A DNA stretch of 64,000 bases from Heterostelium album PN500 (lineage: Eukaryota; Evosea; Eumycetozoa; Acytosteliales; Acytosteliaceae): positions 744,001 through 808,000 of the forward strand of contig NW_008805086.1 of assembly GCF_000004825.1 (NCBI RefSeq). Reading direction: 5' to 3'. The translations under genes were made by a program, and so were the position numbers. A model generated the notes under the pieces. That model searched no databases. It was not told the origin of the DNA and worked only from the letters and a program-made list of their open reading frames with translations. Positions 10,155 to 38,449 of the stretch are shown piece after piece; the first letter of the stretch is position 1; each line of letters begins with the position of its first letter.

Positions 10155-13100
10155 ATGTCAAAACCACACTCAAAAATAGTTCAGGGTGAAGATGATGAGG
10201 AAGATGACTATGATGAAGAAGAAGAAGAAGATGAAGAAGTAGAAGAAGTAATAGATAGTAAACAACAACAACAACAATCATCATCTCGTATTGTAGCTGG
10301 TGAAGAAGATGAAGAAGAAGATGATGGTGAAGTAGAGTATGAAAAGGTGGAAGAAGGAGAGCAACAACAACAATATCAAGAAGGTGAAGAAGATGATGGT
10401 GAAGTAGAGTATGAAGAGGTGGAAGAAGAGGAGCAACAACAACAATATCAAGAAGGTGAAGAATATGAAGAATATGAAGAACAAGAAGAATATAATGAAG
10501 AAGAGCAAATGGCTGGTAGTGATCTATTGAGTTTTATTCAGGATTTGGAAGTCACCAAAGGTGATGCTACTTCTGATGCTGTTGCTGACTTCAATCCAAT
10601 GTCACCAGATACTGCCGACAACAATAGTGATAGTATCATTGTAAATCATAGTAGTGTAGAGAGTGAACAATCGTTATTGGCTGAACAGTTAGAGATTAAA
10701 AGACAAGCTGAGGAAGCAGAGCAAAAGCGTTTGGCTGAAGAGGAAAAGAGACTTGCTGAAGCCGAACAACTAAGATTAGCAGAAGAGAAACGTTTAGCCG
10801 AGGAAGCCGAGCAAAAGAGATTGGCTGAAGGAGCCGAACAACTAAGATTAGCAGAAGAGAAGAGACTTGCCGAAGAAGCTGAACAACTAAGATTAGCAGA
10901 AGAGAAGAGACTCGCAGAAGAGAAGCGCTTGGCTGAGGAAGCTGAACAACTGAGATTGGCAGAAGAAAAGAGACTTGCAGAAGAAAAGAGACTTGCAGAA
11001 GAGAAGCGCTTGGCTGAAGAAGCTGAACAACTAAGATTAGCAGAAGAGAAGAGACTTGCAGAAGAGAAGAGACTTGCCGAAGAAGCTGAACAAAAACGAT
11101 TGGCCGAAGAAGCAGAGCAACTCAGATTGGCTGAAGAGCAACGTTTGGCAGAAGAAAAGAGACTAGCAGAAGAAGCTGAACAACTAAGATTAGCAGAGGA
11201 GAAGAGACTGGCTGAGGAAGCCGAACAACTTAGATTGGCTGAAGAGAAACGTTTAGCTGAGGAAGCAGAGCAAAAGAGATTGGAAGAAGAGAAACGTCAA
11301 GAAGAGGAAAAGAGACTTGCTGAAGAAGCCGAACAAAAGAGATTAGCAGAGGAGAAGAGATTGGCTGAAGAAGCAGAGCAAAAGAGATTAGCAGAAGAGA
11401 AGCGTTTAGCGGAAGAAGCAGAACAACTCAGACTGGCAGAGGAGAAAAGACTTGCTGATGAAGCTGAACAAAAGAGACTGGCAGAAGAGAAACGTCTAGC
11501 TGATGAAGCTGAACAGCTCAGATTAGCAGAAGAGAAACGTCTAGCAGAAGAAGCCGAGCAACTCAGACTGGCAGAGGAGAAACGTTTGGCTGAAGAAGCA
11601 GAACAAAAGAGATTGGCTGAAGAGAAACGTTTGGCTGAAGAAGCCGAACAACTCAGACTGGCAGAGGAGAAACGTCTAGCAGAAGAAGCCGAACAACTGA
11701 GATTGGCAGAAGAGAAGAGACTAGCAGAAGAGAAGCGCTTGGCTGAAGAAGCTGAACAACTCAGATTAGCTGAAGAGAAACGTTTGGCAGAAGAAAAGAG
11801 ACTAGCAGAAGAAGCTGAACAAAAGAGATTGGCTGAAGAGAAACGTTTGGCTGAGGAAGCTGAGCAAGAGAGATTGGAAGAAGAAAGACGTTTGGCAGAT
11901 GAGAAGAGACTTGCTGAAGAAGCCGAACAACTCAGACTGGCAGAGGAGAGACGTTTAGCTGAAGAAGCCGAACAACTGAGATTGGCAGAAGAGAAACGTT
12001 TAGCTGAAGAAGCTGAACAACTCAGACTGGCAGAGGAGAAACGTTTGGCTGAAGAAGCAGAACAAAAGAGATTGGATGAAGAGAAACGTTTGGCTGAAGA
12101 AGCTGAACAACTCAGATTAGCAGAAGAGAAACGTCTAGCAGAGGAAGCCGAGAAGAGATTAGCCGAAGAGAAGCGATTGGCAGAAGAAGCAGAGCAACTC
12201 AGATTAGCAGAGGAGAAGCGCTTGGCAGAAGAAGCAGAACAACTCAAATTAGCTGAAGAGAAGAGACTTGCTGAACAAAAAAGATTAGCTGAGGAGAAAC
12301 GTTTAGCAGAAGAAGCCGAGCAGCTCAGATTGGCAGAAGAGAAGAGACTCGTTGAAGAGGCTGAACAACACAGATTAGCAGAGGAGAAACGTTTGGCCGA
12401 AGAAGCTGAACAACTCAGATTGGCAGAGGAGAAAAGACTTGCTGATGAAGCTGAACAAAAGAGACTGGCAGAAGAGAAACGTCTAGCTGATGAAGCTGAA
12501 CAGCTTAGATTAGCAGAGGAGAAAAGACTTGCTGAAGAGGCCGAACAAAAGAGATTGGCAGAGGAGAAACGTCTGGCTGAAGAAGTCGAGCAACTCAGAT
12601 TAGCAGAAGAGAAACGTCTAGCTGAAGAAGCCGAGCAAAAGAGATTAGCTGAGGAGAAACGTTTAGCCGAGGTAGCCACGCAAAAGAGATTGGCTGAAGA
12701 GAAGCGATTAGCAGAGGAAAAGAGACTTGCTGAAGAAGCTGAGCAAAAGAGATTAGCTGAGGAGAAACGTTTAGCCGAGGTAGCCATGCAAAAGAGATTG
12801 GCAGAAGAGAAGAGACTTGCTGAAGAAGCTGAACAACTCAGATTGGCAGAGGAGAAAAGAATAGCTGAAGAAGCTGAACAAAAGAGACTGGCAGAAGAGA
12901 AGAGACTTGCCGAAGAAGCTGAAGAAAAGAGATTGGCTGAAGTGGCACGTTTAGCCGAAGAAAAGAGACTTGCCGAAGAAGCTGAACATAAGAGGTTGGC
13001 GGAGGAAGCTGAGCAAAAGAGATTGGCAGAAGAAGAAGAACTAAAGAAGAAGGATGTAGAACAAACACCAGCATTAATACCACCAAAGAAAGCACATGAA

Positions 13101-17102: not shown

Positions 17103-18557
17103 ATGACTCATACAATTGTAAAGACTAATCAGGAATGGGATCAAGTCATTCAGGATATCGCTGATTACGTGTTGAACTTCACTCCAACCTCTGACGAATC
17201 ATTCACCACTGCACAATACACACTGTTCGATGCGATCGGTTGTGGATTCCTCGCATTGGCTTTCCCAGAGTGCACAAAATTGATGGGACCCGTTGTAGAG
17301 GGTACCGTTGTGCCAGAGGGTTGCCACGTGCCAGGCACCGACTATGTGCTCGATCCGATCACCGCTGCCTTCAATATTGGTTGTATGAATCGTTGGCTCG
17401 ACTTCAATGACACCTGGCTTGGAAAGGAGTGGGGACACCCATCCGATAACTTGGGTGCCATCCTCGCTGCCGCCGAGTATCGTTCCACTCTCAACGTCAA
17501 AGCTGGCAAGCCAGCACTCACCATGCGTGACGTCTTGATCGCCTTGATCAAATCCTACGAGATTCAGGGTGTCATCGCACTGGAGAACAGTTTCAATCGT
17601 GTCGGACTCGATCACGTCGTTCTCGTAAAGGTTGCATCGACCGCTGTCGTCACTCAGCTCCTCGGTGGAACACGTGAACAAATCATGGCTGCCGTCAGTA
17701 ACGCCTGGCTCGACGGTCAATCGCTGCGTACCTACAGACACTTCCCAAATACCGGAAGTCGTAAATCATGGGCTGCCGGTGATGCTGCTTCGCGTGCCGT
17801 CCGTCTCGCTCTCTTCTCGCTCAAGGGTGAGATGGGTTACCCCTCGGTACTGACCACTCCAGGCTGGGGATTCTACGACGTCTGCTTCAAGGGACAACCA
17901 TTCAAATTCCAACGTCCATACGGTTCCTACGTGATGGAGCACGTTCTTTTCAAGGTAAGTTACCCAGCGGAATATCATGCACAGACCGCCGTTGAGTGTG
18001 GTATCAAGCTGCACCCAACCATCTCAAAGAAGTTGGATCAAGTCGAGTCGATCACCATTACCACTCACGAGTCTGCCATTCGTATCATCGACAAGAAGGG
18101 AGCACTCAAGAACCCGGCCGATCGTGACCATTGCATCCAATATATGACAGCGATCGGTATGATCTACGGTGATTTGGAGGCATCGCACTACGAAGATGAG
18201 GTCGCTTTGAAGGACGAGCGTATCGATCAATTGCGTGCCAAGATGACCTGTGTCGAGAACAAGCAATACTCTGACGACTATTTGGATCCAGAGAAGCGTA
18301 GCATTGCCAATGCCATCCAAGTCAAATACACCGACGGAACCTCATCGGAAGTCGTCGAAGTTCAATACCCAATTGGACATCGTAGACGTCGTCAAGAGGC
18401 CATCCCATTGTTATCTCAAAAGTTCTTTGATTCCATCAAGAATCACAAGTTATCAGCAACCAATTTCAAACAAATCGAGAATATCTATAACAACGAAGCT
18501 GCATTCGCTGCCACCTCTGTTAATGATTTTATTAATTTATTCGTAGTTTCTAAATAA
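17103..18557 (+). CDS. prpD: 2-methylcitrate dehydratase (MmgE/PrpD family)
   Basis: A single uninterrupted frame of 484 residues, the same length as bacterial PrpD to within a residue or so. PrpD dehydrates 2-methylcitrate to 2-methylaconitate in the methylcitrate cycle, which oxidises propionyl-CoA. Strongly conserved family stretches are visible: [68 protein letters not shown] and [12 protein letters not shown]. From memory of enterobacterial PrpD the agreement is high over the whole length. It lacks introns and is richer in G and C than its neighbours, which fits either high expression or an origin by transfer from bacteria; the sequence alone does not decide. No clear N-terminal targeting peptide is seen. 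It converges on PKS copy 1 with only 49 nt between the stops. Confidence 0.95.
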
Positions 18558-18606
18558 ATATAAATAAGAAGAAACTATTATAATAGTTTTAAACAATTTT
18601 ATTTTT

Positions 18607-21600
18607 TTAAACTTTAATCGATTGGATTAATGCGTTAATAGAACTGTTGGTAATTTGTTTGGTTGTAATGTTGGTAATGTTGAATTCTTTTTGTATCCAA
18701 TTCTTTAGTTGAACAGTCAAGAGTGAATCGATTCCATAGTCTTTGAGATGTGTCTCTGGATTTATTTTGGCTTGACTCATTGCGAGAAGATCTGCAACTT
18801 TGGTTGTCACCATATCGAATAGCGAGTTTCCAGTAGATTGGTTGGCTGTTGATGAGGTTTGAGCTTCTTCAAAGTCAATGTCTTCAACTTGAGAGATATG
18901 TTCTAATTTGGATCGAAGCAAACGGTATTGCTCAAATAACGATTTATAAGTCATCTCCACAAGTATTAGATGAGGAGAATCAATAGATTCGTTCAAGAAC
19001 AATTTCATTCCACCAAGAATATGTGATACCGATACCAATTCGAATCCAATCATCTTGAGGAATGTGGATACTGATTTGTTGTTGGCGACTTCTCCACCTC
19101 CTCCCAATGCACCCCACGATACAGATAGACCGCTCAATCCTTGGCTTCTACGATATTGTGCCAAACCATCGAGTACTGAGTTGGCAGAGGTGTAAGCAGA
19201 TTGGTTGGATGATCCAAGAATGGAGAATACAGAACTGAAAAGTACAAAGGAGTTCAACTTCCAACCTTTGGCCTCAAAGAGTGAGTGAAGATTGAATGCA
19301 CCAACTGCTTTGGCGTTGTGAGTACCTGACAAGGTATCAGGTGAAATCGATTGTGGTTCAGTATAATCATAGACTGTGGCAAAGTGAATTACTGATGAAA
19401 CTGGTGCGATACTAGAGTCAGAGTCGTAGATTGATTGGACAGCTTGATCCAACAATTGATATTGACTGACATCAGCTGAACGATAGTGAATTCGAATGGA
19501 ACTACCTCCATACTTTAATTGATTCATGAGGAATTCTAATTCCCATTTCAATTGAGATCTGGAGAGAACAATGACATCCTTCAAACCAACTGGTCGATTT
19601 TCAATGATCCAACGAAGAATGACAATGGCAATACCAGTTTGTCCAGTAATAAGGAGAGTCTGACCGATTTGATTCATCTTGGAACAACTATTGACAACTT
19701 GTTCAAGTTTACCATTTGATTTAAGCTCTGGAATTATTGATCTGTCAAACATACTGAAATCAATAACAATCTTGTTAGAAGCTGATTTCTCCATTGATTC
19801 GAAAGCATCTTTAATTTGGTTACATGGGAATACAGTTGTTCTTTGGTTGGTACTTAGTTGGTTGTTTTCAAATTGTCTGAACAGTTGATTCAAATAACGA
19901 CCAATCAATTTGGATTGGCTCAATAATTGATCAATGTAAAAGGTTTGGTATCCACGGTGATAGGTGAAGTTCTTGATGTTCAAACTGTCATTCTCCATCA
20001 AATTTTGAGTTGAGAGGTCAATGATTCTACCGGATGGTGCCAAACTATCAAAGTTTGATTTCATGAACGATCCACTTGGAAGAGTATTGATGATGAGGTC
20101 GACACCACCAATCGATTTCAATTGATCTGAGAATCCATTATCGATGCTATTCAAGTCAACTTGAGAATAGTAACCAGTGATAATTCGAGGAGAATTCTTG
20201 GAGGACTGATTTATCACAATCAACAGTAACGTAGATATTACCTTGATGTTTCTTGGACTTCAAGAGACTGAGCAATGCTGTCCCTACACCATGATTGGCC
20301 ATATGAATCAAAATTGATTCAGATTCATCGAGGTATCCCATCACAAATGCTGAGACATTGGCAGAGATAAAATCTACTGGGATTGAAGCAGCTTCGGTAT
20401 GGCTGAGATTCGATGGTTTATGGACAATCCAATCATCTCTAACAATAACATGAGATGCAATGGCAGAGTATCCCAAACCAACAACTTGATCACCAATTTT
20501 GAACTTGTTACTGTTACCAGTTCTTGTTACAATACCAGAGAATTCCAATCCAAATGGAGGATTATAGATATCACCACTGATGAACATGTTTTGTGAAAGT
20601 TTTTTCTGGTAGTAGAGTAAGTCTTTTGGTGTTACACCAGCTGCCATCACCTTAACTTCGACTTGGTTTTCCACCAACGATTCAACCATTTCTTTAATTT
20701 CAAATTGTAAATTAGAGTCAAGTCTACAATAGAGATTGTTGTTGATTGAGAATGATGATTCGTTATTATTGAGTGGTGTGATTGGTTTCTTGAAAATACG
20801 TTGGACATTGGTTGAGAGCAGAATTGGTGAACCTTCAAGACGAATGACATATTCCTTGTCATATGGACTGGTAGAAAGTTTAATGAGGTAGGAAAGTGGT
20901 ACTTCAGAGAGTGTCTCCATTGTCAAATCAATAGAGATCGTCGACAATTGATGGAATTCCATAAAGTAACGATGGATACCAATGAGTGACATATTGAAAA
21001 AGTTGTTTGAGTCAACTTGGGCATTCATTGTGGTCAAGACGGTAGTGCAGCTGGTAAGGTTGTTCTTCAAGAGGATTTGGTTCAATTTAACAAATTCGAA
21101 TGTCTTTTGTTGATAGTTATCAACCTTTAGTTGATCCAAACCAGCCAAGTATACAATGAAACACTTTGTTCCATCTCCAATGAATTGTAGGAATTTCTCA
21201 TGATTGGAAACCAATGATTGTGATTCGAAAATTTCAATTCTGTTGGCATTGAGAAGTCCTTGATCAACAAAAGTTGTCTCGATTTCATTTGGAGTTGGTC
21301 CAGCAGTGATAAATGCAATCTTGTTGATTCCTTTGATTTCTGGTTGTGTGAGGATCGAATGGTTTTGGATGATAGAGAATCCATTGCTCATAGTATGGAC
21401 ATTGAGATTGGTACTGAGTGAATTTACCATTGTATTGGTCAGTAGGAGTTGACCACTTGGAGCAAGTAATGATTCCAATTGGCTGAAACTGGCAATCTCC
21501 GAGGTAATGACAATATCATAGCTTGACTTTAATAAACGTTTGTCAATATTGTCATTGTTCACCATGTCTCTACATTTGAAAAGTAGTCTTTCATTGGTGA

Positions 21601-24600
21601 TGTTTAGTGATTGCTTGGCACCAGTGTTGATAAGAGTGTATTCAACATTGATATTTGGATTGGATTGCAAAACTTGTGATTCTATCAAATCGATTAGAAT
21701 CTGTGAGTTTTGAATGTTGTTATCCAATATTTTAACAACCAATTGACTGTTCTTGGTTGTCAAAGAGTTGAGTAGTTGACAAACATATTGGTGAAGTGTG
21801 AAGTTTGAAGGTTTAATGGTGGATGGAAGTAACTCTTTTCTTTGCCAATGTTGAACGAATAGAGTGTTGTTTGGATTGGTAGGTGTGTCTTGTTCAATCT
21901 TTTTGAGGAAGTGGCAAATCATCTTTTCACCAGTCATCAAAAGAGATCCATCTTCGAGGAATACTTTAACTTGACCAATACATGTGTCGGCGGAGTTCGA
22001 GAGAATGTGAACGTAAACATAGATGTGGTCAGGTCTCACTGCTGGAAGATTACCAGAGTAGATCTTCATGTTGTTCAAACCTTCGAATACAAGTTCAGTT
22101 GGATTAACCAATGCAATCAAACCTTGTGCACAACTATCGAGTAACGGTGTATTGAAGAATGTTTCATTGTCAAAAGAAGAAACTGGTGGATTCATATTGA
22201 TGGTTGACAAACAACAATCACGTCCCATCATTGTGGATTTGATACGACTGAACGATGGGCCGAATTCAATTCCAGAGTTCTTGATCTTTTGGTAGACTTG
22301 TTCGTGTGACAACTCTGCATAGTTGCATTGTTCTCTGATGGCTGCAATATCTACTTTTCCAATGTTGGAGGCTGACATTGATGGATAGACAGAGACACGA
22401 CCAATTGCAGATCTGGTCCATTCGTCAGTGTTATGATTCTCTTTGAACATATATTCAACTTTATATTCATTCTTGGCAATCTCGATAAAGTTGGTTTGTA
22501 GGTGATGTTGTACTCCTTCTTTCAAGAAGAATGGATACTTAAAGTCGAGATTGTGGATATAGACATCGCTACCTTTGAAAGCACGAAGAATATTGTCAAC
22601 ATAACCAGTTCCTGGGAACAATGATTGTCCTTTGATTTTGTGACCTTTAAGGAATGCAAATGGTGCCTTTCCAACATCGATGATTGAGAGGTAAGAGAAT
22701 CCTCCTGTGCTGTTGTAATGTTTGTGTCCAAGATGATTGTTGGTTGGACCTTCCAAACGAATCTTCTTGAATGGTAATGGTTCAGCCCACAATGACATTG
22801 AGTTGAATTGGTATCTTGGTAATGTTCCAGCATTGTCCTTCCACATCTGATTTCCAGATCTCTTTAAAATGGGATATTGATTTGAAAAGTTTAGTTTGAC
22901 ACCATAGAGATAAACTTGTGCCAATGTTGTTTGGATCAAGTCTATTTCACTACCTTTTCTGTTGAGTGAAGAGGCAACCAATGGTTGTGTTGATGATGAT
23001 TTCGGAATCATCTTTTTAAGGTAGAAATTTAAAGTTGGATGTGGTGAAATTTCAATAAAGATTGCTGGTTTGTTACCACTTTGTTCACCATTGATTAGTT
23101 TGAAAATATTCTCCATTGCTTTATCGAAAACAACCGGCATACGAAGATTATCATAGATATAGTTAATATCATAATCTTGTTTTCTTGAGAATGTTCCACC
23201 GGTGACTGTTGAGAAGAGGGTGACATTACTTTCTTCATCGTCTTCGAGATACTCAACACTGGCTATCGGTGATTGTAATAGTTTCTCTTTGATAACCTCT
23301 TGTCTGGATGAATGGAAAGAACATGGTGTTGTCAGCATGATCGCTATAACATTCTTATCTTTCAAATGGTTCATCAGAGATTGTAGAGTTAATTCGTCAC
23401 CAGTGACAACAATTGAATCTGGAGAATTGTAACAAGCGATTTCCAATGGATATTTCTCAGAGTAGTTGCTGAGATATTCATTGGCACTGATTCCAATCGA
23501 CAGCATTCTTCCACTTCCAATGGTTTCGTTTTGGAGAGTGGCACGATAGTAGACAATCTTGGCAGCTGTGTATAATGAGATATATTTGGCACAGTAGGCA
23601 GCTGTAACTTCACCAAAGCTGTGACCGACAACGATCGATGGATCGATACCCCAGTGTTTATACAATGCCACCAAACCGATTTGGATGAGGAATATCGAAG
23701 GTTGTGCATTCACTGGCTTATGGATGTCGGATTCATTAGCTCCTTTGAATGTTCTAAGTCTTGAAAGTACTGAATAATTGAAGAATCCTTCGAGTATCTT
23801 ATCACATTCGTCAACAGCATCTCTGAATATCGGCTCCTTTTCATAAAGTTCCAGACCCATTGTGGAGAATTGTGGTCCTTGTCCACAAAAAACAAAAACA
23901 ATTGGAATGTCGCTGGTCTTGCTGAATGAACCCAAACTTGTATCTTGATCTGGTGCAACAAAGGTTCTCTCTTGTTTTTCAAACTGCTCCCAACTGTTGG
24001 CAGCAACAATCTTTCGATTTGAAATGAAGTGCGATTTCGATTCGACTTGATATCGAACAAAATGTTCAAATGGAATTACTTTTGACAATCTGGATATGTT
24101 ATTCTTAATCATGTCAATGTATTTATCGACAGATGCTTTCGAATTTCCAGAGAAAGGAATTAAATAATTTTCTCCTAATGTAGTCGATACATTATTTATC
24201 TAAATAAAATAAATATTAGTTTATTTTTAATATTATTTAAGAATTGTTACTTACCATTTGTGCTGATTTAACAGATTTATATTCTTCTAATATCAAATGA
24301 CAATTGGATCCACCCAATCCAAAGCAATTGATACCTATTCGTATGGTTCTATCTGTTGGGAATGATTCCAACTCGGTTTGAATTTTGATATTCCATTCAT
24401 CACATTTGATTCCTGGATTTGGTGAGTTGAAATGGATGCTTGGAACCAGTTGACGGTTCTTCAGCATCAGACAAACTTTGATGAGTGAAGCGACACCAGC
24501 AGCAGCTTCCATATGTCCCATATTCGACTTGATCGATCCTATTCTTAGAGGCTCCTCAGCGGTGTGGTTACCTTTGAAAACAGAGGCAAGAGCACCAACT

Positions 24601-25755
24601 TCGGTTGGATCACCTACAGGTGTACCGGTTCCATGTGCTTCAACATAAAAGATATCTGATGCACTCAAACGAGCGTCTTTCAATGCGAATTCTACATTCT
24701 CTGCTTGAGCAGTGCCAGATGGTGCTGTCAGAGTTGTCTTGTTGTTACTTCCATCGACATTGCTACTTCCACCTTTGATAACACCATAGATTCGGTTTCC
24801 ATCACGAATGGCAGCATCCAGTCTCTTTAAAATACAGATACCAGCTCCTTCGGCACGTACATAACCATCTGCATCAACATCAAATGAATGACATTTACCA
24901 GTTTTACTTAGTGCAGCTATTTAAAATAAATAAAATAAAATTTATTAATATAAAAATAAATATTATTTTAAATTAAGATAAATCATGTTTTTTAGTTGGC
25001 GCCAAAACTTTGGAAAAAAACGACCAGATTGTTCATTAAAAAAAATAATTTTTTTTTAACAAAACCAATTAATAATTACCTAAATTACTTAAAGAAATAG
25101 TTGCAGATGGTTCAAGTAAATCATTGCATCCTCCGATGACAGCCATTTCACAAGCACCAGATCGAATAGAATTGATTCCGAGGAATGCAGCGTTGAGCGA
25201 GGAGGAACATGCAGTATCGAGTGTCATTGAAGGACCACGCAAATCAAAGGCATAAGACAATCTGTTCGACACAAATGTCAAAATGTTACCGGCCAACGAG
25301 TAAGGTGACATGTCGGTGAGAATACTATTGGTTACCATTTTATAACCTTGGGTCATTGTTCCAATGTAGACTGCAGTGTTACTACCTCTGACAGTATCGT
25401 ATTGTAGCTGAGCGTCTTCAATTGCCTCCCAGAGGATCATCATCAACAAACGGATTTGTGGGTCGATTTGTTCAGCCTCTTTCTTGGTCATACCGAAAAA
25501 CATTGGATCGAACTGTTTCCATTCATCAAGATTTACAAAACCACCAACATTGCTGGTGACATACTCTTGGTCAACATAACTCTGGGCATAACGGTTCGGA
25601 TCCAATTTCGAAAGGAGATCGCTTCCATTGGTCAGAGCACTCCATAGATCATCTGGTGTTTTTGTACATTGGTTGTTGGATCCTGGGAATCTCATACCCA
25701 TACCAATAACTGCAACATCATGCTCTTGATGAGTTGGAATATTGCTTGATACCAT
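18607..25755 (-). CDS. Highly reducing type I polyketide synthase, copy 1 (one-base frameshift)
   Basis: Exons 25080-25755, 24255-24916 and 18607-24199, about 2310 codons in all. Domain order: ketosynthase (LDTACSSSL with the active Cys, [12 protein letters not shown] and [10 protein letters not shown] with the two His), acyltransferase (VVGHSFGEV), dehydratase ([14 protein letters not shown]), a region shaped like a methyltransferase without clear SAM motifs, enoylreductase, ketoreductase ([19 protein letters not shown], with catalytic Ser and Tyr) and acyl carrier ([11 protein letters not shown], carrier Ser). No thioesterase or type III domain follows. Relative to copy 2 there is one extra T at about 20184-20185, which shifts the frame inside the enoylreductase and would give a protein of about 1790 residues without KR and ACP. 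It may be a true mutation or an assembly error. Both parts remain otherwise open, so any break is recent. Confidence 0.9.
24917..25079 (-). other. Intron 1 of PKS copy 1
   Basis: 163 nt. It splits the ketosynthase domain after the SNLG codons and shares only its ends and a short GCGCCAAAAC block with the matching intron of copy 2 (36161-36333, 173 nt), in sharp contrast to the flanking exons. Confidence 0.8.
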
Positions 25756-25782
25756 TTTTTTAAAAATTGAAATAAAGTTTAT

Positions 25783-25829
25783 ACAAAAGATTAAAATTCA
25801 AATATGTTAAATGAAAGTATATGTGAAAT
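25783..25829 (-). promoter_or_regulatory. Upstream block shared by both PKS genes
   Basis: The block around GATTAAAATTCAAATATGTT, followed by AATGAAAGTAT-TGTGAAA, recurs at 37054-37101 upstream of PKS copy 2, at a similar distance from the ATG. It stays recognisable where the surrounding spacer does not. It may be core promoter or leader sequence, or simply a less decayed part of the duplication. Confidence 0.5.
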
Positions 25830-27461
25830 TATATATAAAATAAAAGAAATGTATATCAATTAATTAAATAAAAGAGTTTAAATAATATTTAATAATTTTA
25901 TAATGTTGAAGAATTCTAAAAAAAGAAAACAAATAGGCTTGGAATAAATAATAATAGTTTTTATAAATAGAAAAAGGAATAAATAATATATGTTTAGATT
26001 GGATATTAGGACTGAATTTGAATATAAATTCTTTTTAATAATAAGATTAAATAAATTGAAAATATAATTTAAATAAAAACAAATTTTTATAAAAATATAT
26101 ATATATATATATAATTTTTTATACGATATATATATTGTACTTTTAAAAGTTTACTTTTTTATTTAAATGTCCTATCTAACTATTTATAAATGATCATGTT
26201 TAATTTATACCTTATTATTTGTTTTTTTAAAAATCAAACATAGATGTGATTTTTTTAGGTGAAAAATTAAACAGGTTAATATTTAAAAATAACAAATCAT
26301 TAATTGTTGAAGCTGCCTCAACACAAACACAAGTTCTCAAAAAGTTTCCGGTCACTTCCATGACTTGGAGTAGTATTTTCAGAGATATCACTATTCTAAA
26401 GATTTATTTGCAGTTTCTTAGCTTGTACATTTAAAGAATTCTGTAAAGACGAAATCAAAGAATTGTCAGTGTTCCTATTTAGTGACTGATGAGATCGCTT
26501 TGCCTGTCAGTTGGTTACTTCGATATTGCCAGAGGGTTTGAATAATGGGCATAGATGTGAATTTGTTCTGAACACTAGTGGGGGTATTATGAACCTGATG
26601 CTGTATACCACACTTCAGCTTATTACCATTTTGGTCATACTATATCGATTGGTTTTTTTTTTGTTAATATTTAAAAATTAAAATAAAAAAGAAGAAAAAA
26701 ATTAAACACACAACCAATAATTATTATTGTTCATCTCTTAAAGAAAAAAACAAAAAATCAGGACATTCTCATTATCATTGATACTAGATTTGAAAACAAA
26801 AAAAAAAAAAAATGAAACACCTTTAACTAAATTATAAAAAAAGGTTAAGAAAAGATAAAAGAAAATTAGTGTTGTTTTGTATGAAGAGTTAGGTGCAACC
26901 ATTCCTATTTTGTTGATTGATTTTTAAAAATAATTTTTGCTAACCCACACTTTTTTTTTTTGTAAGTCAAATGGGGTGCAAAACTAGCCAATAGAAACTG
27001 GATTTTCAATCAACATGTGTTGACTGAACAAAATTGTTTTTAATCGATTTCAATTTGAATCAAAATATTCTAAAAATATTTTTTTAGGGGGCGATATGTC
27101 AAAAGTCGAATGATCGACAAATTTTTTATTGGGTCAATCATTAATAAGCGATAATTGATAGAATGCACCATCTTTTTGTTTTGTTTATTTTTTTAATCTA
27201 TTTTGATAGCTTTCATACATTTAAATGATTACATTCAGATTTGTTGCTAAGGTTTAACGAGCTGAGCTTCTTTTAAAAAAAAATAAAATAAATGTTAAAA
27301 TAACTTTCTTTTAAGTGATTCATTCTAGCTCGGATACAACATTGACATCAATACTTTCATTATCTATGGGTCAGATACAATAATTTATCAAAGATAATAA
27401 TCTTTTAAGTAGAGGACCTTTTTTCTTTTATTTTGTTTAAAAAACTAATTTTATGATTTAT
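25830..27461. other. Spacer between PKS copy 1 and O-methyltransferase
   Basis: About 1.6 kb. Most is AT-rich with a TA microsatellite near 26095-26112. A less AT-rich island at about 26240-26650 may be a decayed gene and is listed separately. No intact gene is seen. Confidence 0.45.
26240..26650. pseudogene. Possible decayed coding island
   Basis: Base composition here is closer to exons than to spacers. On the + strand there is a 61-codon open stretch (26246-26434; EAASTQTQVLKKFPVTSM), and a second coding-like stretch after it is broken by stop codons. I do not recognise a family. It could be the remains of a gene or of a mobile element inserted between the PKS and OMT genes. Low certainty. 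Confidence 0.3.
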
Positions 27462-28689
27462 TTACTTTTTTGAAAGAATAATAAAGTTTTGAGTTAATCC
27501 TTGATCTGATTCAACAAATTGATCAATCTTGAAATCAGTTCTTGAAATCAATTGATTCCACTCTGATTTGTTACGAACTTTTCCATTAAGCAAGTTCATC
27601 ATATCTATATTGATATTAAAAATTAATAATTTAATTATATTGTAAAAATATATAAATATACATACGTAAATCAGTCCATGCAACATATCTTTTCTTTAAT
27701 GAGAAATCACCAGCAGAATCTTCACCCATATGTTCTGCAAGATAAACTTTACCGTTTGTTCTAATTGCTTCGGAGACATTTGCTAAGATTTCTACACATT
27801 GGTCATCATTCCAGTTATGCAGCACCCACTTGAAAACATAACAATCAGCTTCTGGAACTGATTCGAAGAAGTTTCCTCCAACATCTGAGAATCTTGGGTC
27901 GAGTTGTCTTTCTCCTAACTTTTTGAGGTTTTCAAATACAATTGGTTGATCAAAGTTCAATCCTTGTTTAATTGTTGGATAGTTCTTCAAGATTTCATTT
28001 AACAATCTTAATAAAATTAAATAATATATTAATAAAAAATATAAACAATTTAAAATTAAATATTATACTTACAAACCATGAGAACCACCAACATCACATA
28101 CAATTTCGAATTTACTAAAGTCACCCATTTTAACCAAATGTTGAACAGATGGAGATGACATTGAAGCCATTCCTTTGGTAAACTCGATATCTGCTTCTGG
28201 ATTCTTCTTGAGGAAGTCCCATAGTGATGTTGAATCTAAACTCTTGAATCCAGAGGTCTTTCCAGTCATTACTGTCTCATAAAGTGACTCCCATGATAAA
28301 TAGAAGGCTGTACCACAATGAAGGAGAGCTTCATCACGGGTGACTTGGTTCAATAATTGGATAGAAAGATTGGTGTGTTGGAAGATACCTTTCTCCATTC
28401 CTTGGCCAATACACTCTGAAAAGAAACCTTCGGTTGACATGGCACGCATCATACGGTAGAGTGACTCTCCATGGGCACCAACCTCAGTGGCAATATCATA
28501 ACATGACTTCTTTGATTGAACAGTGTTTCCAAGCTTTTCACAGATTCTTAACTTGGCACAGATATAAATACACTTTGTCATTTGTTGACCATTGTAGAAC
28601 TTCATTATTGGCATGTGTTGAACGGCACTACCCAATAAATTTAACATGGCATCTCTATCCATGGACTGAAATATTAAAGCTGGATCCAT
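27462..28689 (-). CDS. S-adenosylmethionine-dependent O-methyltransferase
   Basis: Three exons, 28073-28689, 27666-28006 and 27462-27604, about 366 residues. It has an N-terminal winged-helix dimerisation part, then the SAM-binding motif CDVGGSHG, then FKWVLHNWNDDQC with the His that acts as base in this class, EH near AEHMGED, and the late DLHMMNLLNGK motif. This is the plant-COMT/ASMT-like class that in D. discoideum includes DmtA, which methylates a polyketide to make DIF-1. It lies between two polyketide synthase genes on the same strand, so methylation of a PKS product is a reasonable inference. The intron joins were fixed by phase and by restoring these motifs. A second, broken copy of its 3' end lies at 37910-37988. 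Confidence 0.92.
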
Positions 28690-29439
28690 ATTTTTGATAT
28701 TAAATAATTATAATTTTATGAGGATTATGAAAAGTAGATAGATAATTGAACAACAAGAAGTAGATTTATAATGAATCGATAATGAATTTCCATTTTTTTT
28801 ATACTAATTGATTTTTTATAAACAAAAAATAATAAAAAAATTAAATAAATATTTTTGTTATCAAAGTTGGGGATCATCACCTGGATAAATTTGTGGTGGT
28901 TAGATAATAATTTATTTTTAAGAAAAAGAGTGAAGTTTTCATCTCTCGGCAACTATTCAGAGTATGCACTCAGAAGAAGTGTCAGCCAATAAAGTGTTGA
29001 TCTTTGCAGAAATTATCAACATTTTTTTTATTGACACTTTGGTGAACTATTTTACAAATGGGGTAATATGTACATTTTGAACGAGACCTCTTTTCAGCTA
29101 TTTGAAAATCTCCAAGTTAACTTTTAGATTCTGGGTTTGCAACAAATGAATTTTTTGTTTTGTGGTGTTAGTGCTCAATCTAACATCAGTGTCGATTCAT
29201 TTTGAAAAAAAAAAACTTTTGCAAAAGTTTTTGACAAAAAAAAAAAACGGTTTTGTTTTAGCAGTTCATTCGATCAGTGAATTTTAAAAAAAAATGACAC
29301 ACGATCTTTTTATGTCTTTTTTGGGTGCATATGTTTTTTTTTTGCCCATTTAAATATTTTTTTATTTTTATTTATTTTTTAGTAGTTTTGTCATGACCGG
29401 CATTCCACTAATGTTTTTATTATCTTCTTAACTTATAAA

Positions 29440-29700
29440 CAAAAAATATTAAAGAAGAAGTTAATTTAACTGAAACAATCGATTATGTTAGTTTATTGGA
29501 TAATCTTGAATCCTATTTAGAGATGAGATAGATCTATTGGTTGGAACTGATCAAGTTGTAAATTTTGGTTGGTAGAACATCTTAAATTTTTTATTTATAT
29601 ATTTTAAAAATCTATTAAATAGTGAGTGGTAAATCATCGGTATTAGCTAGTGCTTGTCATATGATTAATACATGTTCAACTACTGGATAAAAACAATAAT
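29440..29700 (+). pseudogene. Possible decayed gene fragment with P-loop-like sequence
   Basis: On the + strand a short open stretch reads TETIDYVSLLDNLESYLE and, after a break and an intron-like TAG, SGKSSVLASACHMINTC, which resembles a nucleotide-binding P-loop region. Stops interrupt it and no start is visible. It looks like a remnant of an NTPase-type gene, but the evidence is thin. Confidence 0.28.
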
Positions 29701-29773
29701 TATGATTATAACGATGTTTTAGATATTAATCTCTATTTGTTATTTATTTATTATTTTAAAAAATATGTTTAAT

Positions 29774-29822
29774 TTCATTCTGTCACTACTAATCATGTAT
29801 TTGTAGTACCTAAATAAATATA
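29774..29822 (+). pseudogene. Trace of prpD 3' end
   Basis: TATTTGTAGTACCTAAATAA followed by ATATA matches the last codons and stop region of prpD (TATTCGTAGTTTCTAAATAA and ATATA at 18538-18562). A weaker match continues upstream (CATTCTGTCACTACTAATCA). It sits directly 3' of PKS copy 2, just as the real prpD end sits 3' of copy 1, so it marks one edge of the duplicated unit. Confidence 0.65.
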
Positions 29823-29841
29823 ATAAAATAATTTTATTTTT

Positions 29842-32800
29842 TTAAACTTTGATCGATTGGATTAATGCGTTAATAGAACTGTTGGTAATTTGTTTGGTTG
29901 TAATGTTGGTAATGTTAAATTCTTTTTGTATCCAATTCTTTAGTTGAACAGTCAAGAGTGAATCGATTCCATAGTCTTTGAGATGTGTCTCTGGATTCAT
30001 TTTGGCTTGACTCATTGCGAGAAGATCTGCAACTTTGGTTGTCACCATATCAAATAGCGAGTTTCCAGTAGATTGGTTGGCTGTTGATGAGGTTTGAGCT
30101 TCTTCAAAGTCAATGTCTTCAACTTGAGAGATATGTTCTAATTTGGATCGAAGCAAACGGTATTGCTCAAATAACGATTTATAAGTCATCTCCACAAGTA
30201 TTAGATGAGGAGAATCAATAGATTCGTTCAAGAACAATTTCATTCCACCAAGAATGTGTGATACCGATACCAATTTGAATCCAATCATCTTGAGGAATGT
30301 GGATACTGATTTGTTGTTGGCGACTTCTCCACCTCCTCCCAATGCACCCCACGACACTGATAGACCGCTCAATCCTTGGCTTCTACGATATTGTGCCAAA
30401 CCATCGAGTACTGAGTTGGCAGAGGTGTAAGCAGATTGGTTGGATGAACCTATAATCGAGAATACAGAACTGAATAGAATAAAGGAGTTCAACTTCCAAC
30501 CTTTGGCCTCAAAGAGTGAGTGAAGATTGAATGCACCAACTGCTTTGGCGTTGTGAGTACCTGACAAAGTATCGGGTGAAATCGATTGTGGTTCAGTATA
30601 ATCATAGACTGTGGCAAAGTGAATTACTGATGAAACTGGTGCGATACTAGAGTCAGAGTCGTAGATTGATTGGGCAGCTTGATCCAACAATTGATATTGA
30701 CTGACATCAGCTGAACGATAGTGAATTCGAATGGAACTACCTCCATACTTCAATTGATTCATAAGGAATTCTAATTCCCATTTCAATTGAGATCTGGAGA
30801 GAACAATGACATCCTTTAAACCAACTGGTCGATTTTCAATGATCCAACAAAGAAAGACCATGGCAATACCAGTTTGTCCAGTAATAAGGAGAGTCTGACC
30901 GATTTGATTCATCTTGGAACAACTATTGACAACTTGTTCAAGTTTACCATTTGATTTAAGCTCTGGAATTATTGATTTGTCAAACATACTGAAATCAATA
31001 ACAATCTTGGTGGACTGAGATTTCTCCATTGATTCGAAAGCATCTTTAATTTGGTTACATGGGAATACAGTGGTTCTTTGGTTGGTACTTAGTTGGTTGT
31101 TTTCAAATTGTCTGAACAGTTGATTCAAATATCGACCAATCAATTTGGATTGGCTCAATAATTGATCAATGTAAAAGGTTTGGTATCCACGATGATAGGT
31201 GAAGTTCTTGATGTTCAAACTGTCATTCTCCATCAAATTTTGAGTTGAGAGGTCAATGATTCTACCGGATGGTGCCAAACTATCAAAGTTTGATTTCATG
31301 AACGATCCACTTGGAAGAGTATTGATGATGAGGTCGACACCACCAATCGATTTCAATTGATCTGAGAATCCATTGTCGATGCTATTCAAGTCAACTTGAG
31401 AATAGTAACCAGTGATAATCGAGGAGAATTCTTGGAGGACTGATTTATCACAATCAACAGTAACGTAGATATTACCTTGATGTTTCTTGGACTTCAAGAG
31501 ACTGAGCAATGCTATCCCTACACCATGATTGGCCATATGAATCAAAATTGATTCAGATTCATCGAGGTATCCCATCACAAATGCTGAGACATTGGCAGAG
31601 ATAAAATCTACTGGAATTGAAGCAGCTTCGGTATGACTGAGATTCGATGGTTTATGGACAATCCAATCATCTCTAACAATAACATGAGATGCAATGGCAG
31701 AGTATCCCAAACCAACAACTTGATCACCAACTTTGAACTTGTTACTGTTACCAGTTCTTGTTACAATACCAGAGAATTCCAATCCAAATGGAGGATTATA
31801 GATATCACCACTGATGAACATGTTTTGTGAAAGTTTTTTCTGGTAGTAGAGCAAGTCTTTTGGTGTTACACCAGCTGCCATCACCTTAACTTCGACTTGG
31901 TTGTCCACCAACGATTCAACCATTTCTTTAATTTCAAATTGTAAATTAGAGTCAAGTCTACAATAGAGATTGTTGTTGATTGAGAATGATGATTCGTTAT
32001 TATTGAGTGGTGTGATTGGTTTCTTGAAAATACGTTGGACATTGGTTGAGAGCAGAATTGGTGAACCTTCAAGACGAATGACATATTCCTTGTCATATGG
32101 ACTGGTAGAAAGTTTAATGAGGTAGGAAAGTGGTACTTCAGAGAGTGTCTCCATTGTCAAATCAATAGAGATCGTCGACAATTGATGGAATTCCATAAAG
32201 TAACGATGGATACCAATGAGTGACATATTGAAAAAGTTGTTTGAGTCAACTTGGGCATTCATTGTGGTCAAGACGGTAGTGCAACTGGTAAGGTTGTTCT
32301 TCAAGAGGATCTGGTTCAATTTAACAAATTCGAATGTCTTTTGTTGATAGTTATCAACCTTTAGTTGATCCAAGCCAGCCAAGTATACAATGAAACACTT
32401 TGTTCCATCTCCAATGAATTGTAGGAATTTCTCATGATTGGAAACCAATGATTGTGATTCGAAAATTTCAATTCTGTTGGCATTGAGAAGTCCTTGATCA
32501 ACAAAAGTTGTCTCGATTTCATTTGGAGTTGGTCCAGCAGTGATAAATGCAATCTTGTTGATTCCTTTGATTTCTGGTTGTGTGATGATCGAATGGTTTT
32601 GGATGATAGAGAATCCATTGCTCATAGTATGGACATTGAGATTGGTACTGAGTGAATTTACCATTGTATTGGTCAGTAGGAGTTGACCACTTGGAGCAAG
32701 TAATGATTCCAATTGGCTGAAACTGGCAATCTCCGAGGTAATGACAATATCATAGCTTGACTTTAATAAACGTTTGTCAATATTGTCATTGTTCACCATG

Positions 32801-35800
32801 TCTCTACATTTGAAAAGTAGTCTTTCATTGGTGATGTTTAGTGATTGCTTGGCACCAGTGTTGATAAGAGTGTATTCAACATTGATATTTGGATTGGATT
32901 GCAAAACTTGTGATTCTATCAAATCGATTAGAGTCTGTGAGTTTTGAATGTTGTTATCCAATATTTTAACAACCAATTGACTGTTCTTGGTTGTCAAAGA
33001 GTTGAGTAGTTGACAAACATATTGGTGAAGTGTGACATTTGAAAGTCTAATGGTGGATGGAAGTAGCTCTTTTCTTTGCCAATGTTGAACGAATAGAGTG
33101 TTGTTTGGATTGGTAGGTGTGTCTTGTTCAATTCTTTTAATAAAGTGGCAAACCATCTTTTCACCAGTCACCAAAAGAGATCCATCTTCGAGGAATACTT
33201 TAACTTTAGCAATACATGTGTCGGCGGAGTTCGAGAGAATGTGAACGTAAACATAGATATGGTCAGGTCTCACAGCTGGAATATTACCAGAATAGATCTT
33301 CATGTTGCTCAAACCTTCGAATACAAGTTCAGTTGCATTTATTATTACAATCAAACCTTGTGCACAGCTATCGAGTAACGGTGTATTGAAGAATGTTTCA
33401 TTGTCAAAAGAGGAAACTGGTGGATTCATATTGACGGTTGACAAACAACAATCACGTCCCATCATTGTGGATTTGATACGACTGAACGATGGGCCGAATT
33501 CAATTCCAGAGTTCTTGATCTTTTGGTAGACTTGTTCGTGTGACAACTCTGCATAGTTGCATTGTTCTCTGATGGCTGCAATATCTACTTTTCCAATGTT
33601 GGAAGCTGACATTGATGGATAGACAGAGACACGACCAATTGCAGATCTGGTCCATTCGTCAGTGTTATGATTCTCTTTGAACATATATTCAACTTTATAT
33701 TCATTCTTGGAAATCTCGATAAAGTTGGTTTGTAGGTGATGTTGTACTCCTTCTTTCAAGAAGAATGGATACTTAAAGTCGAGATTGTGGATATAGACAT
33801 CGCTACCTTTGAAAGCACGAAGAATATTGTCAACATAACCAGTTCCTGGGAACAATGATTGTCCTTTGATTTTGTGACCTTTAAGGAACGCAAATGGTGC
33901 CTTTCCGACATCGATGATTGAGAGGTAAGAGAATCCTCCTGTGCTGTTGTAGTGTTTGTGTCCAAGATGATTGTTGGTTGGACCTTCCAAACGAATCTTC
34001 TTGAATGGTAATGGTTCAGCCCACAATGGCATTGAGTTGAATTGGTATCTTGGTAATGTTCCAGCATTGTCCTTCCACATCTGATTTCCAGATCTCTTTA
34101 AAATGGGATATTGATTTGAAAAGTTTAGTTTGACACCATAGAGATAAACTTGTGCCAATGTTGTTTGGATCAAGTCTATTTCACTACCTTTTCTGTTGAG
34201 TGAAGAAGCAACTAATGGTTGTGTTGATGATGATTTCGGAATCATCTTTTTAAGGTAGAAATTTAAAGTTGGATGTGGTGAAATTTCAATAAAGATTGCT
34301 GGTTTGTTACCACTTTGTTCACCATTGATTAGTTTGAATATGTTCTCCATTGCTTTATCGAAAACAACTGGCATACGAAGATTATCATAGATATAGTTAA
34401 TATCATAATCTTGTTTTCTTGAGAATGTTCCACCGGTGACTGTTGAGAAGAGTGTGACATTGCTATCGTCTTCGAGATACTCAACACTGGCTATCGGTGA
34501 TTGTAATAGTTTCTCCTTGATAACCTCTTGTCTGGATGAATGGAAAGAACATGGTGTTGTCAGCATGATCGCTATAACATTCTTATCTTTCAAATGGTTC
34601 ATCAGCGATTGTAGAGTTGATTCGTCACCAGTGACAACAATTGAATCTGGAGAATTGTAACAAGCGATTTCCAATGGATATTTCTCAGAGTAGTTGTTGA
34701 GATATTCATTGGCACTGATTCCAATCGACAGCATTCTTCCACTTCCAATGGTTTCGTTTTGGAGAGTGGCACGATAGTAGACAATCTTGGCGGCTGTGTA
34801 TAATGAGATATATTTGGCACAGTAGGCAGCTGTAACTTCACCAAAGCTGTGACCGACAACGATCGATGGATCGATACCCCAGTGTTTATACAATGCCACC
34901 AAACCGATTTGGATGAGGAATATCGAAGGTTGTGCATTCACTGGCTTATGGATGTCGGATTCATTAGTTCCTTTGAATGTTCTAAGTCTTGAAAGTACTG
35001 AATAATTGAAGAATCCTTCGAGTATCTTATCGCATTCGTCAACAGCATCTCTGAATATCGGTTCCTTTTCATAAAGTTCCAGACCCATTGTGGAGAATTG
35101 TGGTCCTTGTCCACAGAAAACAAAAACAATTGGAATGTCGCTGGTCTTGCTGAACGAACCCAAACTTGTATCTTGATCTGGTGCAACAAAGGTTCTCTCT
35201 TGTTTTTCAAACTGCTCCCAACTGTTGGCAACAACAATCTTTCGATTTGAAATGAAGTGCGATTTCGATTCGACTTGATATCGAACAAAATGTTCAAATG
35301 GAATTACTTTTGACAATTTAGATATGTTATTCTTAATCATGTCAATGTATTTATCGACAGATGCTTTCGAATTTCCAGAGAAAGGAATTAAATAATTTTC
35401 AAGACCTAATGAAATAATATTGCTTTTCTAAATAAAATAATTATTAGTTTTAAAATAAAAATATAAATTGTATTTTATATTTAAGATTTTTTGCTTACCA
35501 TTTGAATTGATTTAACAGATTTATATTCTTCTAATATCAAATGACAATTGGATCCACCCAATCCAAAGCAATTGATACCTATTCGTATGGTTCTATCGGA
35601 TGGGAATGATTCCAACTCAGTTTGAATTTTGATGTTCCATTCATCACATTTGATTCCTGGATTTGGTGAGTTGAAATGGATGCTTGGAACCAGTTGACGG
35701 TTCTTCAACATCAGACAAACTTTGATGAGTGAAGCGACACCAGCAGCAGCTTCCATATGTCCCATATTCGACTTGATCGATCCTATTCTTAGAGGCTCCT

Positions 35801-37012
35801 CAGCGGTGTGGTTACCTTTGAAAACAGAGGCAAGAGCACCAACTTCGGTTGGATCACCTACAGGTGTACCGGTTCCATGTGCTTCAACATAAAAGATATC
35901 GGATGCACTCAAACGAGCGTCTTTCAATGCGAATTCTATATTCTCTGCTTGAGCAGTGCCAGATGGTGATGTCAGTGTTGTCTTGTTGTTACTTCCATCG
36001 ACATTGCTACTTCCACCTTTGATAACACCATAGATTCGGTTTCCATCACGAATGGCAGCATCTAGTCTCTTTAAAATACAGATACCAGCACCTTCAGCTC
36101 GTACATAACCATCTGCATCAACATCAAATGAATGACATTTACCAGTTTTACTTAGTGCAGCTATTTAAAATAAATAAAATAAATTTAAATTAATATTATT
36201 TGACAATTCGTAAATCTAGAATATGCGCCAAAACAACTAATATTTCAACCCCCCTTTTAGATTTTCAACTCATATTTAATATTTTTTTTTTTGGTCCAAT
36301 AAATTTCTTTTAAAAAATCATATAAATAATTACCTAAATTACTTAAAGAAATAGTTGCGGAAGGTTCAAGTAAATCATTGCATCCTCCGATGACAGCCAT
36401 TTCACAAGCACCAGATCGAATAGAATTGATTCCGAGGAATGCAGCGTTGAGCGAGGAGGAACATGCAGTATCGAGTGTCATTGAAGGACCACGCAAATCA
36501 AAGGCATAAGACAATCTGTTCGATACAAATGTCAAAATGTTACCGGCCAACAAGTAAGGTGACATATCGGTGAGAACATTACTCATAATCATTTTATAAC
36601 CTTGGGTCATTGTTCCAATGTAGACTGCAGTGTTACTACCTCTGACAGTATCATATTGTAGCTGAGCGTCTTCAATTGCCTCCCAGAGGATCATCATCAA
36701 CAAACGGATTTGTGGGTCGATTTGTTCAGCCTCTTTCTTGGTCATACCGAAAAACATTGGATCGAACTGTTTCCATTCATCAAGACTCACAAAACCACCA
36801 ACATTGCTGGTGACATACTCTTGGTCAACATAACTTTGGGCATAACGGTTCGGATCCAATTTCGAAAGGAGATCGCTTCCATTGGTCAGAGCACTCCATA
36901 GATCATCTGGTGTTTTTGTACATTGGTTGTTGGATCCTGGGAATCTCATACCCATACCAATAACTGCAACATCATGCTCCTGATAAGTTGGAATATTATT
37001 ATGGGATTTCAT
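29842..37012 (-). CDS. Highly reducing type I polyketide synthase, copy 2 (intact)
   Basis: Exons 36334-37012, 35499-36160 and 29842-35427, giving 2308 residues in one frame. Ketosynthase: Cys 184 in DTACSSSL, then [12 protein letters not shown] and [10 protein letters not shown]. Acyltransferase: GHSFGE near residue 640. Dehydratase: [12 protein letters not shown] near 985. A middle region (~1230-1500) has the position of a C-methyltransferase but no clear SAM-binding glycine motif. Enoylreductase is at ~1700-1900 with an HGVG nucleotide loop. Ketoreductase is at ~1950-2140 with SAYTSAN, although its first loop reads TGQTGIA and lacks the usual third Gly. The acyl carrier Ser is near 2270 in YGIDSLL. 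This is the fungal-like iterative layout common in dictyostelids; release must be by another enzyme or by transfer, as no thioesterase is present. Start at 37012 matches the copy 1 start and precedes the conserved [10 protein letters not shown]. Confidence 0.95.
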
Positions 37013-37053
37013 TTTACAAAATCTTAGACCTAAATTTAAATTTAAGAAAGTAT

Positions 37054-37101
37054 TACAAAGATTAAAATTCAAATATGTTAAAATGAAAGTATTTGTGAAA
37101 A
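37054..37101 (-). promoter_or_regulatory. Upstream block shared by both PKS genes
   Basis: Counterpart of 25783-25829: GATTAAAATTCAAATATGTT, then AAATGAAAGTAT-TGTGAAA, about 40-90 nt before the ATG of copy 2. Confidence 0.5.
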
Positions 37102-38449
37102 TTTATTTTAATATGATGGAACTTAATGTTTTTTTTGAATAAAATAATATAATATATATATAATTTATAATTAACAAATTAATTAATTCAATTATTTATT
37201 TTATAGTTAATGGTTTATGTTGTCCAACGTGTTTCCATCAAATTAAAATTCATTGCAAAAACATAATGAAATTAATTTATTCTAGATAATCTAGAGATTA
37301 GGATGAAATGTATATAGGTCATAGGTTGAAATTAATAGATAAGATTAAAATGAATTCCAATTTATCTTTGTTTAATATAGGTTACTACTATTAAAATTAG
37401 AAAGAAAATTTCTAATTTAAAAAAAAAAAACGAAGATAAAGAAAATTAATTTAGATATATGTTCTATAACCTTTGTCATTTCTTATTGTTATATGACAGT
37501 TATTTCATCTAAATGTTTTTATGCTTAACGTTGTCAGTAAATACAAACTAAACATTTTTTTTTATGATTCTCAAAAATAATATTTAACAAAGAGATATTT
37601 TTAATTTTGTCATAAATTTTTCTATAACGATGTAGATTCATTTTTAAAAAAAACCAAATTTAATTGCAAATGACCGACTTCCTAACTGAAGTTCTGTATT
37701 AGTTTATCAAAACTGTAAAAATGAAATCGATTCAATAAAAAAAACATTATTAATCCACTCCAAATCACAACAAATAACTTGAATTAAATAGCTATTAATT
37801 ATATCTTAACATATCTTAGGTAGTAACAAAATCCATTATAATATAATAATAAATAACTCTATCTTTTTAGTTCCAATAATATATTTGTTTATTGAAAGAA
37901 AAAAGAGTAGGATTTATTTACTTTTTTTGAAAGAAGAATAAAGTTTTGAGTTAATCCTTCATCTGATTCAACAAATTGATCAATCTTTCTTCCAATCGAC
38001 TATAGTAGTTGACTCATGAACACTGAAAATCATTAATCTTTTTTCATACTTAAATATATAAATATTGTTAGTGTTAAAAAAAACAGATACATTCATCTAT
38101 GTTTTAAATGTAAATAATTAAAAAAATAAATAATTATTTTAGTTTTCCAAATCTGTAGGCATTTTTACCTCAATGATATTTATTTCTTTAAATATTTTAT
38201 TTTATTGTTTTAAGATTGAGATGAGATATTCTACATGATCCAATTTTGATAGTTTTTAAGTGGATAATTTTAATTTAGAGATCGAGATTAAACTAATTGG
38301 TTGGTTGTCATTCATTGTTGTTATTTAATTATTTATTTTGGTTAGTTGGTTGGTTTAATCCAAAAATGAATAATTATTTCAAATAAAATTATGAGATATT
38401 TATAATTTGCATTTGATATTGTTTTTTGTTTTAAATAAAGTTGATTTTT
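37102..38449. other. Spacer between PKS copy 2 and FAM135-like gene
   Basis: About 1.35 kb, very AT-rich. The only recognisable item is the O-methyltransferase relic at 37910-37988. No intact gene is seen. Confidence 0.5.
37910..37988 (-). pseudogene. Relic of the O-methyltransferase 3' end
   Basis: About 75 nt match the last exon and stop region of the O-methyltransferase at 27453-27530 (for example GAATAAAGTTTTGAGTTAAT and CTGATTCAACAAATTGATCA) with a few substitutions and a small insertion; similarity ends abruptly on both sides. It lies upstream of PKS copy 2 in the same orientation and relative order as the intact gene lies upstream of copy 1, so the second OMT was present once and was mostly deleted. 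Confidence 0.85.

Follow-up and report, generated by a model that had tools for sequence, protein, structure and literature searches.

A tandem duplication comprising the tail of a prpD-like gene, a polyketide synthase (PKS) gene and at least the tail of an O-methyltransferase (OMT) gene is supported by the sequence of Heterostelium album PN500, and its two PKS copies may be older than they seem, since it is probable that their coding parts overwrote each other afterwards. The near-identity of the two genes, PKS1 and PKS2, does not appear to date the duplication safely, as their apparent youth conflicts with intron interiors and spacers that can no longer be aligned. The DNA analysed, hereafter the window, is a stretch of 64,000 nucleotides (C25:744001-808000, on one of the 39 contigs of the 32.9 Mb genome), and coordinates given without a contig refer to it. 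A first-pass annotation had proposed a unit of prpD end, PKS and OMT that is seen twice; the duplication of these elements stands, but the history attached to it needs three changes, concerning the decay of prpD, the dating and the PKS dose. The features concerned are as follows.

17103-18557, plus strand: prpD-like gene (MmgE/PrpD), intact; Pfam PF03972 (5.9e-86) and PF19305 (2.4e-52); Acytostelium match 85%
18532-18606: left edge of the unit, copy 1 (prpD tail and short intergenic region); 18532-18965 aligns with 29769-30200 at 93%
18607-25755, minus strand: PKS1 (PPL_04464); exons 25080-25755, 24255-24916 and 18607-24199; KS-AT-DH-ER-KR-ACP
24917-25079, minus strand: intron B of PKS1; interior unalignable with intron B of PKS2
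25829-27451: spacer 1 (PKS1 to OMT); homology to spacer 2 not found
27452-27530, minus strand: OMT 3' end, source segment of the relic, by alignment
27462-28689, minus strand: OMT (PPL_04465), intact; exons 28073-28689, 27666-28006 and 27462-27604; Pfam PF00891 (1.8e-44) and PF08100 (4.4e-06)
28690-29768: region upstream of the OMT gene, reaching to where copy 2 starts on the left; the duplicated unit likely ends here on the right
29769-29841: copy 2, left edge, with a trace of the prpD tail (clear at 29795-29817) and the 3' flank of PKS2, by alignment and nulls
29842-37012, minus strand: PKS2; exons 36334-37012, 35499-36160 and 29842-35427; 2308 aa, open frame
36161-36333, minus strand: intron B of PKS2; interior unalignable with intron B of PKS1
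37101-37907: spacer 2; contains dispersed-repeat pieces at 37126-37233 and 37670-37857
37908-37987, minus strand: OMT 3'-end relic, 79 nt, by alignment to OMT and nulls
38112-38215: tentative remnant, in copy 2, of sequence upstream of OMT, an echo of 28827-28923

The prpD-like gene and PKS1 are convergent, with 49 bases from stop to stop, and each of the two PKS genes is made up of three exons and two introns on the minus strand. The PPL_04464 protein is 94% identical to PKS2, its initial residues being those of PKS1. The OMT protein matches PPL_04465 at 100%; its three exons were modelled here as 366 aa, against 370 aa in the public model. Elsewhere in the window, positions 10698-13051 hold long imperfect repeats within an open frame of 1180 codons that has no Pfam match.

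The arrangement described in the first-pass annotation, two near-identical PKS genes in the same direction with an OMT between them, is borne out. Segments 18591-24951 and 29826-36196 share 97.5% identity over 6.4 kb, and 25044-25828 and 36298-37100 share 93.4%, on the same strand in both cases; two close copies in direct orientation are what characterises a tandem segmental duplication. The domain order KS, AT, DH, ER, KR, ACP of a highly reducing type I PKS was recovered from Pfam matches in the public PKS1 model (P0001) and in PKS2 exon 3, and the KS of PKS2 was recognised as a PF00109 match at C25:780057-780973, in exons 1 and 2. A methyltransferase domain is absent from the precomputed Pfam list of P0001. 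These domains mark the predicted products of both genes as fully reducing type I PKS enzymes.

The PKS2 frame is open across 2308 codons. In this assembly, PKS1 carries a 1-nt insertion at 20184 and loses its frame at about codon 1784, with the latter part of the ER, along with KR and ACP, downstream of the frameshift (placed via the Pfam matches in PKS2 exon 3). The public model P0001 skips a stretch at the frame break, apparently spanning it with an intron of the model, and another within the KS. A doubled PKS dose, as proposed earlier, is doubtful given the frameshift of the assembled PKS1, which puts KR and ACP out of frame.

The OMT 3'-end relic upstream of PKS2 is certain on the alignment evidence. 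Segments 27452-27530 and 37908-37987 match at 95% over 80 columns (3 mismatches and 1 gap; E 1e-28), or at 96% over 77 columns (2 mismatches and 1 gap) in a second alignment, and the score was reached by none of 200 shuffles and by none of 500 comparisons in each of two nulls made of real AT-rich stretches. From all real-sequence nulls, 9 loci derived from the window were left out, as were 9 others that have 25-mers in common with it. Previously given as 75 nt at 37910-37988, the relic is thereby confirmed as 79 nt at 37908-37987, with edges that are sharp by eye. Its derivation from another OMT is rejected, since it is 84% identical to the closest OMT paralogue found (C2:620 kb) and 96% identical to the OMT of the window. 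This paralogue, at C2:620456-621721, has 81% DNA identity, and the listed ketoacyl-synthase matches on C2 are more than 100 kb distant from it. As to known RNAs, no Rfam match at gathering score was obtained for the relic or the spacers in 16000-42000, and no tRNA was found in the window.

To the right of the relic, an OMT coding remnant did not rise above the nulls (126 and 103 of 500 as good; 4 of 200 shuffles). The OMT upstream region does give an echo, at 67% between 28800-28940 and 38088-38231, whose support depends on the null used: 0 of 200 shuffles, 0 and 1 of 500 for stretches of about 400 bases, and 24 and 2 of 500 for the whole stretch. Its core at 38112-38215 is tentatively read as what copy 2 retains of the sequence upstream of OMT, and would then fit a deletion of the missing part of OMT copy 2 that begins sharply, on its left, at 37987/37988. 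Such a deletion likely removed most of OMT copy 2, the alternative being a duplication breakpoint within the OMT. The earlier view that one OMT was retained and the other reduced to a trace is upheld as to the relic and probable as to the loss, with a breakpoint inside the OMT as the competing account.

At the left edge, the prpD coding end is traceable over 23 nt (18535-18557 against 29795-29817; 19 of 23 positions match), continuous into the PKS 3' flank. When 68-101 bases per side are compared, the match is borderline (12 of 200 shuffles as good; 80 of 5000), at the exact place it is strong (0 of 5000; 1 of 5000 with the intergenic part), and deeper into prpD no homology was found (93 of 200 shuffles as good). 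The prpD trace, which had been placed at 29774-29822, is accordingly weak: the 23-nt match holds at its exact place and is borderline over longer stretches. An alignment of the copies at both relics, which had been named as the check on the duplication, exceeds chance clearly at the OMT relic and only at the exact place for prpD. Truncated tails of neighbouring genes, as expected at duplication edges, are thus present, firmly for OMT and weakly for prpD. The proposed reduction of prpD by decay is not needed, because a tandem duplication with its left breakpoint in the last codons of prpD would have copied only that tail. Under a plain tandem duplication, the unit would extend from 18532 to about 29768.

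Within the PKS genes, coding and non-coding parts give conflicting measures of age. Across 2304 codons, dS is 0.059 and dN 0.013 (ratio 0.22), from which introns about 94% alike would be expected. Codons up to 30 away from an intron, together with the first 30 of the gene, have a silent difference of 0.132; for those 31-100 away it is 0.066 and for more distant ones 0.049, and divergence extends into the exon edges (codons 447-456 and the first codons). Outside these islands, synonymous differences are not clustered (63 codons; 2508, 2677 and 1424 of 3000 shuffles as dispersed for three window sizes), and clustered silent differences that would mark gene-conversion tract borders are not seen within the exons. 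Taken together, all differences are clustered (0 of 2000 shuffles), driven by replacement sites (0, 1 and 0 of 3000), whose clustering may reflect constraint; silent and replacement differences rise together weakly across windows (r 0.27; 109 of 5000 permutations as high).

The 62 amino-acid differences were polarised with the public model in place of PKS1. With the nearest outgroup, 12 are derived in PKS1, 17 in PKS2 and 33 undecided; by the majority of seven outgroups, each copy has 21 and 20 are ties. As derived residues split 12/17 and 21/21, neither copy looks long dead. Seven PKS2-derived changes, at codons 1141, 1142, 1145, 1187 and 1210 in the DH region and 1972 and 1974 in the KR, lie where 5 to 7 of the seven outgroups side with PKS1 (33139-33348 and 30847-30861 in the window, PKS2 codons 1141-1210 and 1970-1974). 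Since they fall at outgroup-conserved DH and KR sites, PKS2 may be functionally different too.

The introns depart strongly from the expected similarity. Intron B measures 163 bases in PKS1 and 173 in PKS2, with 55% identity over all columns and 39% in the interior, which resembles shuffles (58 of 200 as good in local and 22 of 200 in global alignment); by eye, its two outer ends still match, one for about 10 nt and the other for about 25 nt. For intron A (55 and 71 bases), identity is 63% with gap columns counted and 82% with them left out. Because the ends of intron B match, and intron B as a whole and intron A each exceed shuffles (0 of 200 each), the introns are best described as diverged homologues. 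A search of the genome that skipped very common words found no further copies of either intron B, and introns swapped in from another PKS are rejected on that ground.

Outside the coding regions, the start-codon surroundings of the two genes do not align, and homology between spacer 1 (25829-27451) and spacer 2 (37101-37907) is not above nulls (65 of 200 shuffles; 154 and 233 of 500). In a genome search, spacer 1 matched only itself, one internal inverted stretch and one 51-base segment. The non-coding pieces that can still be aligned (relic, 5' block and intron ends) show, on inspection by eye, differences of a few percent, similar to synonymous sites. The repeat pieces in spacer 2 (37126-37233 and 37670-37857) are about 79-88% like stretches on C4, C5, C12 and C17 and have no Rfam gathering-score match.

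A comparison for this exon-intron contrast is provided by six further PKS genes, on C25, C15 and C11, which have a common gene plan and form a second family. In its 15 pairs (the C15 and C25c genes compared in part), intron identity does not track exon divergence. For B1-B2, exon 3 is 98% and intron 2 65% identical; for B2-C11b, 87% and 95%; for C11a-C11b, exon 3 is 93%, intron 1 90% at dS 0.229 and intron 2 66%; and for B1-C15, exon 3 is 96%, intron 1 95% and intron 2 66%. The introns have 53-64 bases, so each comparison is short, and dS of all B2 pairs rests on the 227 codons left by a frame break in B2. Different introns of one gene appear to have different nearest relatives, which is what exchange among paralogues leaves behind. 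These pairs also indicate that intron similarity can be retained in this genome where exons have diverged more than in the window pair: introns need not outpace exons, since the introns of B2-C11b and C11a-C11b are 90-95% alike at larger exon divergence. Such discordance in both directions is expected from ectopic gene conversion among paralogues, and conflicting divergence within one gene pair, its hallmark, is found between exons and introns of the window pair as well as in this family.

B1 and B2 form a second tandem PKS pair on the contig of the window (C25:89527-110904; 97% over 8.1 kb), with the frame break of B2 in exon 3 and a direct upstream flank that matches at 81-89%. On C11, 1535141-1542687 and 1616934-1624480 are an inverted pair with 93% identity across the gene and about 0.5 directly outside the coding region.

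We favour, at somewhat better than even probability, an older duplication followed by homogenising conversion of the alignable parts and then by loss of most of OMT copy 2. A block of about 11 kb (prpD tail, PKS, OMT and OMT upstream region) would have been tandemly duplicated with its left breakpoint in the last prpD codons, and introns and spacers would then have diverged past alignability. Ectopic gene conversion, in a single long event or in a few separated by little time, would later have homogenised whatever was still able to pair, namely the PKS exons, short stretches of UTR and the OMT copy, while the diverged intron interiors, the start-codon region and the spacers escaped. About 5% synonymous change would have built up after conversion, most of OMT copy 2 would have been deleted, leaving 79 nt, and PKS1 would have gained its frameshift, unless this is an assembly error. 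The two copies, the relic, the contrast between exons and introns and the frameshift in this assembly are directly observed, whereas we infer the conversion, the order of events and the OMT deletion.

Several observations weigh against this history. The unclustered silent differences and the lack of tract borders in exons fit a whole-gene event or a plain recent duplication equally well, and patchwork conversion in many tracts is not supported. The 96% identity of the relic requires that OMT copy 2 was homogenised as well, or that conversion was very short. The second PKS family was possibly converted itself and then gives no independent intron clock. Conversion of exons by a reverse transcript, suggested by exons that match where introns do not, was set aside by argument: an intron would be lost wherever a cDNA tract spanned its junction, and both introns are kept; moreover, divergence enters exon edges (codons 447-456) and matching enters intron ends.

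A single recent tandem duplication, at about 5% synonymous divergence, with loss of OMT copy 2 and remodelling of introns, start region and spacers by indels and fast turnover, is possible but on balance unlikely. It would account for the unclustered synonymous divergence and for the equal apparent age, by eye, of relic and UTR pieces. The dispersed repeats in spacer 2 show that non-coding turnover is real. The upstream windows of B1-B2 (100 columns each) are mostly at 0.79-0.98, with one at 0.50 and many gaps, despite exons of about 98%. However, point mutation cannot take the interior of intron B from about 95% to chance level in that time, and introns of more diverged second-family pairs are still 90-95% alike. 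Conversion is placed above recent duplication because the latter offers no mechanism for the intron interiors.

An insertional duplication, in which a 9-kb copy of the segment from prpD tail to OMT tail was inserted on the right side of OMT, would make the relic a breakpoint and the OMT never fully duplicated. This would explain why copy 2 ends sharply within the OMT and why no OMT coding match lies past the relic, but it takes two breakpoints and an insertion against one tandem junction, and the tentative OMT upstream echo lies beyond the relic; we regard it as improbable. An assembly effect, in which two copies that are in truth more diverged had their near-identical exons merged or swapped and a base-call error produced the frameshift, is very improbable: frame breaks do occur in near-identical genes of both pairs (PKS1 and B2), but evenly spread silent differences and distinct introns and spacers imply that the copies were assembled apart.

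Dictyostelids possess large, lineage-specific PKS families. More broadly than the conversion history favoured for the window, we raise tentatively, as somewhat less likely than its opposite, that an exchange network links this species' PKS genes, in which paralogues on at least three contigs swap coding tracts and overwrite those of one another, with diverged introns as barriers. If so, PKS near-identity would record recombination rather than duplication age. Should paralogues keep overwriting each other, identity-based counts and dates of PKS duplications would mislead, and new variants could arise by mixing. With its edge, relic and diverged introns, the locus is a compact test case; the event is of an ordinary kind and its preservation unusually good.

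The best PKS match in another species is Acytostelium subglobosum SAMD00019534_099010 (52% over 99%), a single gene at that identity among the matches listed; a second Acytostelium protein (46% over 100%) and dictyostelid putative fatty acid synthases, over about half the length, follow. The Acytostelium PKS and prpD matches lie on different contigs. Acytostelium is not named among the 10 OMT protein matches listed, of which 3 carry an organism name. A methylated polyketide pathway joining OMT and PKS, as read from adjacency, is a guess. A PKS-methyltransferase pathway known in these organisms, according to the accessible part of one source (PMC7259674), is the synthesis of DIF-1 by StlB, DmtA and ChlA.

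Searches of open-licence literature returned no report of gene conversion in Heterostelium album or in Dictyostelium polyketide synthases (the sole match concerned Naegleria by its listing), and nothing on diverged introns under one term set. Dictyostelid PKS expansion is described as lineage-specific, with Dd1 and Dd2 called very similar, in the accessible text of PMC3188802, in whose main text the terms "gene conversion", "concerted" and "homogeni" are absent; the window pair resembles it in that near-identical PKS pairs arise in one lineage. That duplicated genes evolve in concert through ectopic gene conversion is set out in the accessible part of a review (PMC3924837), and the window pair resembles the systems described there, in which exchange keeps duplicates alike and leaves a mosaic of alike and unlike parts inside one gene pair. 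It differs from the opsin example given there, where introns are homogenised and exon 5 differs, whereas here exons are alike and intron interiors differ. A likeness in pattern is offered by the Argiope MaSp2 silk genes (PMC9779670, accessible part), for which evidence of intergenic gene conversion is presented and coding units are alike despite highly divergent introns, although silk repeat units were compared between species in that case and a tandem pair of metabolic genes is compared here.
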